NCBI GenBank assembly: GCA_013289985.1
Contig: JABCYW010000010.1
Location: 1-64,000 of the forward strand
Direction: 5' to 3'
From: Betaproteobacteria bacterium
GTDB taxonomy: Bacteria > Pseudomonadota > Gammaproteobacteria > Burkholderiales > Burkholderiaceae_C
Length of the DNA: 64,000 nucleotides
Both the position numbers and the translations under genes were made by a program. The notes beneath the pieces are model-generated. The model made no database searches and had not been told where the DNA came from. It saw only the letters and a program-made list of their open reading frames with translations. Positions 16,499 to 17,794 of this stretch are shown here, one piece after another (position 1 is the first letter of the stretch; each line of letters opens with the position of its first letter).

Positions 16499-17794
16499 CT
16501 ACCGAGCCTTCTGCTTCGCGAGCTCGATCTTGGCGATCGAGTTGCGGTGCACCTCGTCGGGCCCGTCGGCGAAGCGCAGGGTACGGGCCACCGTATAGAA
16601 GTACGCCAGCGGCGCATCCTCGGACATGCCCATTGCGCCGAACACCTGCATCGCCCAGTCGATGACGCGGCAGGCCATGTTGGGCGCCACCACCTTGATC
16701 ATCGCGATCTCCGACTTCGCGGTCTTGTTGCCCGCCACGTCCATCATCCAGGCCGCCTTGAGCGTGAGCAGGCGCGCCATGTCGATCTGACAGCGCGCCT
16801 CGGCGATGCGCTCCTGCGTGACGGTCTGGTGCGACAGCGGCCTGCCGAACGCCACGCGGGACGCGGCGCGCTCGCACATCAGCTCCAGCGCGCGCTCGGC
16901 CAGGCCGATCAGGCGCATGCAGTGGTGGATGCGCCCCGGGCCCAGCCGGCCCTGCGCGATCTCGAAGCCGCGGCCTTCGCCCAGCAGGATGTTGGAGGCG
17001 GGCACGCGCACGTCGTCGAACGCCACCTCCATGTGGCCGTGCGGCGCGTCGTCGTAGCCGAACACGGTGAGCGGGCGCAGGACCTTCAGGCCCGGGGCGT
17101 CGGCCGGCACCAGGATCATCGACTGCTGCGAGTGCGCGGGCGCCTCGGGGTCGGTCTTGCCCATGAAGATGTAGACGGCGCAGCGCGGGTCGCCGGCGCC
17201 CGACGTCCACCACTTGCGGCCGTTGAGCACGTACTCGTCGCCGTCGCGCACGATGCTCGCCTGGATGTTGGTGGCGTCGGACGAGGCCACCGCCGGCTCG
17301 GTCATCGCGAACGCGCTGCGGATCTTTCCTTCGAGCAGCGGCTCCAGCCAGCGCGCCTGGTGCTCGGGCGTGCCGTAGCGCACCAGCACCTCCATGTTGC
17401 CGGTGTCGGGCGCCGAGCAGTTGAACACCTCGCTGGCCCAGGGCGTGCGGCCCATGATCTCGGCCAGCGGGGCGTAGTCCGTGTTGGACAAGCCAGGACC
17501 CCAATCGGCGGCGAGCGCTCGGCCGCTCCGGAGAGAGCCGCCGAGCCCCTCGGGGGCGGCGAGCGAAGCGAGCGGGGCTGTCACATTCGGCAGGAACAGG
17601 TTCCAGAGGCCGGCGGAGCGCGCCTTGACCTTGAGATCCTCGATCAGCTGCAGCGGCGTCCAGCGCCGGCCGGCGGCCGTGTTGGCCACGATCTCGGCGT
17701 GGTAGCGCGGCTCGGCGGGCAGCACGTGCTCGGCGATGAAGGCCTGCAGGCGGCCCTGAAGTTCGGTGGTGCGGGGGGAGTAGGCGAAGTCCAT
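16499..17794 (-). CDS. acyl-CoA dehydrogenase, LvaC/ACAD10-11-like, carrying an in-frame insertion
   Basis: A 431-residue FAD flavoenzyme. Family blocks are [64 protein letters not shown] and [19 protein letters not shown]. It follows a phosphotransferase gene with a 1-base gap. In the Pseudomonas levulinate pathway (LvaA/LvaC) and in animal ACAD10/11 such a kinase phosphorylates 4-hydroxyacyl-CoA and the dehydrogenase partner removes the phosphate to give enoyl-CoA; the same job is inferred here. Residues 73-99 (about 27 residues between LFLPN and [10 protein letters not shown]) are extra relative to the family and are encoded by a palindromic repeat at 17498-17578. The frame is kept, but the insertion sits in the N-terminal helical domain and may affect activity. 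Confidence 0.88.
17498..17578. repeat. REP-like palindromic element inserted in frame in the acyl-CoA dehydrogenase gene
   Basis: About 81 bp with nested inverted repeats: CGGCGGC (17506-17512) with GCCGCCG (17537-17543), and GCCCC (17545-17549) with GGGGC (17553-17557) around TCG. Next to this lies GCGAGCGAAGCGAGCGGGG. The composition and stem structure resemble small dispersed palindromic repeats of Burkholderiales genomes. It interrupts an otherwise conserved protein segment with about 27 codons and no stop. Edges are judged from the protein family and are approximate to a few bases. Confidence 0.65.

Follow-up and report, generated by a model that had tools for sequence, protein, structure and literature searches.

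The window analysed here is a 64,000-nt stretch (contig JABCYW010000010.1, positions 1 to 64,000; assembly GCA_013289985.1) from a betaproteobacterium of the Burkholderiales. It carries, on the minus strand at positions 16499 to 17794, an acyl-CoA dehydrogenase (ACAD) gene of the ACAD11/LvaC type, assigned by its open reading frame, the Pfam acyl-CoA dehydrogenase domains and the best PDB match of its 431-residue product. That match is ACAD11 (8v3u; E value of 1.4e-138), in which residues 371 to 440 and 441 to 771 align with host residues 3 to 72 and 101 to 429, respectively, leaving 28 host residues without a counterpart. The adjacent upstream gene (17796 to 18917, minus strand) reads as an aminoglycoside-phosphotransferase-like kinase, resembling LvaA or the kinase-like part of ACAD10/11. 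A pairing of kinase and ACAD has been described for LvaA/LvaC and for ACAD10/ACAD11 (PMC12440821), and the putative kinase gene beside the ACAD gene fits that arrangement. The host locus resembles both systems in its ACAD11-matching enzyme with the key residues and in its putative kinase-like neighbor, and differs from them in carrying a repeat-derived loop.

An earlier note on this DNA had described a GC-rich, in-frame, stop-free segment between the LFLP and GLSN motifs of the ACAD, a description that the open reading frame and the Pfam domains bear out. The segment had been placed at 17498 to 17578; it is real, but a DNA search of the whole genome, with the consensus of the family as query, located the repeat copy a few bases off, at 17509 to 17583 on the minus strand, in the same orientation as the host gene. 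This copy of an approximately 81-bp repeat is 75 bp long, is 88% identical to positions 4 to 80 of the 81-nt consensus, with a 2-nt deletion mid-copy in the pairwise alignment, and encodes most of a stretch of 26 residues. It lies within an enlarged loop of 31 residues (residues 70 to 100, N-VTAPL...WGP; positions 17495 to 17587, minus strand) that separates LFLP from GLSN in the window protein, where one congener has only DSERGA. Between the same anchors, the window protein has 51 residues and that congener 26, a net gain of 25 residues instead of the roughly 27 that had been proposed.

Next, orthologues were surveyed at 110 loci; whole genomes supplied 30 of these and a named collection 80, and some genomes are represented in both sources. 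The motif made 96 of the loci readable, and the other 14 were dropped. Only 4 of the 96 readable rows bear an insert, with loops of 28, 28, 31 and 49 residues, and these stem from three genomes of one genus, the window genome (G000) and its congeners G001 and G002, the last represented twice (its own row and a named record with the same loop). The insert lies at the same point in all three, and a large insert was seen solely in this genus among the readable rows. In the other 92, which include the fourth congener, G003, with DSERGA, the loop spans 6 to 18 residues, a range suggesting that the insertion site is a naturally length-variable loop. The note had regarded the interrupted stretch as conserved; its borders, LFLP and GLSN, do hold the insert, but its length varies. 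It had also considered that orthologues in many genera might share the same residues, which was the case in none of the 92 rows.

The insert has changed within the genus without loss of frame. The G001 gene contains the insert and a shortened second copy, with GLSN also repeated, and 9 nt are missing from the insert of G002; the frame is kept in both. In a gene tree of 13 rows, built with the insert removed, G001 falls outside G000, G002 and G003 (93/91, a fork that we treat as open). Judging from this tree, the insert-less G003 would sit inside an insert-bearing clade, a position that calls for loss of the insert, replacement of the gene or an error in the branching order. The G003 enzyme keeps a loop resembling that of other genera.

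The repeat nature of the segment, also proposed in the note, was confirmed by further copies in the window genome and many in the congeners, so that a second copy is not lacking. At an E value of 1e-6 or below, at least 3, 30, 24 and 20 places were found in G000, G001, G002 and G003, respectively; these are lower bounds, because 40 candidates were scored per genome. Whole-genome copies in the four congeners are 78 to 99% identical. When up to 3 mismatches were allowed, a 23-nt core matched at 4, 16, 15 and 10 sites in G000 to G003, compared with 0, 0, 1 and 1 for the reversed pattern. Across 399 sampled genomes of the family, a 21-nt core (up to 1 mismatch) was present in six, four of which are those of the window genus; the others are G225 (four matches) and G188 (one match). 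In G225, which belongs to another genus of the family, two of the four core matches lie 90 bp apart, and the best matches to the consensus span just 24 to 29 nt in the two loci examined. With the whole window copy as query (E value of 0.001 or below), 8 of 60 relatives matched, namely the four congeners and G008, G033, G046 and G057. Two loci of G008, from another genus, match 52 nt of the consensus at 85 to 87% and are also alike outside this match. These matches point to a related half-length repeat in at least one other genus, and for this reason we call the repeat lineage-restricted and not genus-restricted.

Copies also occur in tandem or in clusters, as seen at four loci (L248, L262 and L268 of G001, on contigs C225, C244 and C162, and L257 of G002, on contig C228), with four copies in L268. 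The window genome has 3 strong copies, compared with 20 to 30 in its congeners, and genes contain two of its three. Copies in genes may persist longer than those between genes, or some copies may be hidden by the draft assembly; the low number is perhaps in part an effect of the 210-contig draft.

To describe where the copies lie relative to genes, 80 places were collected from blast matches in the fetched loci (E value of 1e-4 or below), deduplicated by their flanks and with tandem partners counted separately, and the upstream coding frame was scored by a codon-usage model for which six window genes (1,791 codons) served as the training set. In 31 of the 80 places, an upstream stop codon lies 2 to 45 nt ahead of the repeat, at 8 nt or less in 26 of them, and in a further 14 the repeat's own TGAC tip supplies the stop (TGA). 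Hence, in 45 of the 80 places a gene in the same orientation ends at most 45 nt ahead of the repeat or at its tip, an extragenic placement near gene 3' ends like that of REP elements. The remainder comprise 3 places with a stop inside the repeat, 15 open through it, 16 with no upstream coding on that strand and 1 at a contig edge. The 15 open places correspond to 11 copies inside genes, 3 C-terminal tails and 1 intergenic copy (L229) that was misassigned; conversely, two copies that lie in genes, the first of the two in the G001 ACAD and the one in PaaB, had been misfiled by the codon-usage sorting as not coding on this strand. An antisense check listed 6 open places, of which 3 were judged convincing (ABC ATPase, UvrA-like gene and MoeA). 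In three congeners (L258 of G003, L261 of G002 and L268 of G001), a copy lengthens the C-terminus of a GGDEF-like gene by about 30 residues before the stop; it reads as the same gene each time, ending RVEIELE.

As mentioned above, some copies lie within reading frames. Overall, in-frame copies were found in nine genes that are not related to one another, and for every one of these genes the four congeners include both filled and empty alleles. The ACAD gene is filled in G000, G001 (two copies) and G002 and empty in G003, and the hydantoinase B gene is filled in G001, G002 and G003 and empty in G000. A glutamine-synthetase-like gene is filled in G002 and G003, filled but shortened in frame in G000, and without a copy in G001. 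MoeA is filled in G003 and the UvrA-like gene in G001, each being empty in the other three genomes. A hotdog thioesterase gene is filled in G003 and empty in G000 and G002, and also in G001 as judged by abutting match pieces only. The ABC ATPase gene is filled in G002, appears by reading to hold a degenerate version in G001, and is empty in G000 and G003. PaaB has a copy near its N-terminus in G002 (a second G002 fragment is incomplete) and none in G000, G001 and G003. Lastly, the gene for a permease-like histidine kinase contains two copies in G002 and an eroded one in G001 and is empty in G000 and G003. Some of these in-gene copies match the consensus only in part, over 46 nt in MoeA and 30 nt in the hydantoinase. 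For five of the nine proteins (ACAD, glutamine synthetase, thioesterase, ABC ATPase and MoeA), alignments with solved homologues were inspected, and all five are interrupted across the repeat stretch. Together with the copy number, the filled and empty alleles and the eight further genes uphold the description of the ACAD insert as a REP-like dispersed repeat in a metabolic gene.

The in-gene copies are read in several frames and in both orientations, and four of the six frames of the consensus are free of stops. Since several frames and both orientations are in use, the copies encode no common peptide, and a shared peptide function was rejected because the reading frames differ between the host proteins.

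The segment had been thought to contain nested inverted repeats, which the structural analyses did not support. No inverted pair with a minimum of 12 nt was listed in 17400 to 17700, and the RNA fold of 105 nt was not better than that of dinucleotide shuffles (z score of +0.61); the exact window copy gave +0.94, and the consensus and six other copies ranged from -1.07 to +0.55. Under a shared stem model of 61 distinct rows, 81.4% of the cells were paired, compared with 81.5% after shuffling, and 8 double changes were counted, compared with a shuffle mean of 7.8; sliding the stem partners dropped pairing to 38 to 50%, as expected for a structure derived from the consensus. RNAalifold gave no covariation support on 62 copies, and Rfam returned no match across the insert and one subthreshold match at 17320 to 17470. 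A structured-RNA reading was rejected on the absence of covariation and of an Rfam match.

The repeat has a conserved TGAC tip, the next base often being G or A, and the terminal GTAG or CGTC tag of REP elements was not found on it; the reverse complement of the tip contains (C/T)GTC, but it has no adjoining stem like those published. All four congener genomes have Y1_Tnp genes, 8 in total, and no repeat copy was detected in their flanks of up to 1.5 kb (best matches with an E value of 0.37). A dedicated transposase was rejected, as none of these genes adjoins a copy. No target-site duplication was evident in five aligned sets of filled and empty genes, although for the thioesterase the motif could read only two of the four rows.

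We then considered the state of the host enzyme, which the note had proposed to be either damaged or extended by a flexible loop. Outside the insert, the flanks of the ACAD gene show dN/dS of 0.11 to 0.21 at dS of 0.33 to 0.38 in all six congener pairs, and they are under purifying selection. Four key active-site residues named for ACAD11 in PMC12440821 (R626, H634, R637 and D753) correspond to R283, H291, R294 and D410 of the host when mapped on the 8v3u alignment, in which the chain index is one below the residue number, as the D753N chain shows. An AlphaFold2 model, built from 44 sequences (the window protein and 43 of the 80 named loci), has an ACAD fold with a mean pLDDT of 79.5 and a pTM of 0.82. 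The top Foldseek structures were 4hr3 and human ACAD11 (2wbi), with query-normalized TM scores of 0.80 to 0.82 and root mean square deviations of 5 to 6. The insert has a pLDDT of about 30, and residues 70 to 100 fall below 50, so that the loop is predicted to be disordered. The host thus combines the ACAD fold with ACAD11-type active-site residues, although R283 and D410 lie in two further model segments, 275 to 286 and 407 to 415, whose pLDDT is likewise below 50. This evidence favors a working enzyme with a floppy loop on the basis of dN/dS and the conserved residues more than of the predicted model, and of the two outcomes in the note, the loop is the one to which the flanks, the kept residues and the modeled disorder of the insert point.

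The reading that we prefer, with a probability of about 0.88, is that a copy of a lineage repeat was inserted in frame and is tolerated as an unstructured loop in an enzyme that is most likely active. It is unlikely that the insert damaged the enzyme and that the gene is a young pseudogene with its frame still intact. Within the insert, dN is close to dS in G000-G002 (0.070 and 0.088), as might be expected of such a gene, although this rests on very few changes; the values are 0.082 and 0.155 in G000-G001 and 0.148 and 0.184 in G001-G002. The constraint on the flanks and the retention of the key active-site residues argue against damage, as does a frame retained in three species despite a 9-nt deletion and a partial duplication. 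Less probable still is a selected new functional module, such as a partner-binding loop; its retention in three of four congeners and its presence twice in one species would agree with selection, but the same DNA occurs in different frames of unrelated proteins and gives no common peptide, evolves under little constraint, is predicted to be disordered and is missing from G003. Ordinary variation in loop length or a chance GC-rich stretch, with no dispersed repeat, would suit the 6 to 18 residues of the other rows and the unremarkable fold scores, but can be practically dismissed given the 78 to 99% identical copies at tens of places in three congeners, the nearly empty reversed control and, in other genes, clean alleles both with and without the repeat.

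On the preferred reading of a tolerated in-frame copy, an interspersed repeat of about 81 bp with a TGAC tip would have multiplied within one Burkholderiales genus, spreading as DNA, its peptide having no common function. Frameshifting insertions and those that run into a stop would presumably be removed by selection, and insertions into a tolerant loop in a frame free of stops could survive as extra unstructured peptide. The window copy would be one of the latter, lying in the N-terminal domain of an ACAD11/LvaC-like enzyme at a loop whose length varies naturally, and the activity of this enzyme is most likely retained. More tentatively, and with the odds somewhat against it, this lineage-restricted repeat might be mobile and home to stop codons with its TGAC tip by means of an enzyme. 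Because stops are absent from four of its six frames, it might in addition act time and again as a natural "loop inserter" that adds loops to unrelated host proteins, and these loops might then erode in frame with the divergence of the species.

Several known systems resemble this repeat. REP elements of the GTAG and CGTC superfamilies lie near gene ends, supply stop codons and sometimes fall wholly within open reading frames (PMC3733652). As described there, they are likewise short, dispersed and mostly just 3' of genes, sometimes giving the stop codon or 20 to 30 extra residues, and uvrA is a reported target, as is the UvrA-like gene here. In contrast to REP elements, the window repeat is about 81 bp long, ends in TGAC and not in GTAG or CGTC, has no stem-loop beyond that of shuffles and no RAYT gene flanked by copies. 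It is a dispersed multicopy repeat as they are, but its places (at least 3, 30, 24 and 20) number tens or fewer, below the more than 100 per genome usual for REPs according to the abstract of PMC2817692. Rickettsia palindromic elements (RPE) are in-frame insertions of about 150 bp with a conserved peptide (PMC10969869), and recurrent in-frame insertion into unrelated genes is likewise seen here, in nine genes; the likeness is by description, and in contrast to the conserved peptide of RPE, several frames are used here with no peptide in common. The RU-1/ERIC, RU-2 and RU-3 sequences are small mobile enterobacterial sequences whose open frames form in-frame fusions with genes, and they too use more than one frame; they differ in their length of 103 to 168 bp, their enterobacterial hosts and their presence, in many cases, in small hypothetical proteins (PMC2759123). 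By analogy, the window repeat appears REP/RPE-like in its behavior but is not a proven member of either family, because the tag, the stem and the transposase were not found. Among the open-licence literature searched, there was no description of the window repeat family or of the nine-gene set.

In-frame insertion of repeats is already a known phenomenon (PMC3733652, PMC10969869 and PMC2759123), and for proteins the most familiar examples come from Rickettsia, along with scattered reports on REP elements. In the genus studied here, four close species provide filled, empty, tandem and eroded alleles of nine genes, which make the fate of repeat-derived loops traceable and testable in ordinary enzymes. 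They also carry a warning for annotation, namely, that such loops are repeat DNA and not features of the protein family.
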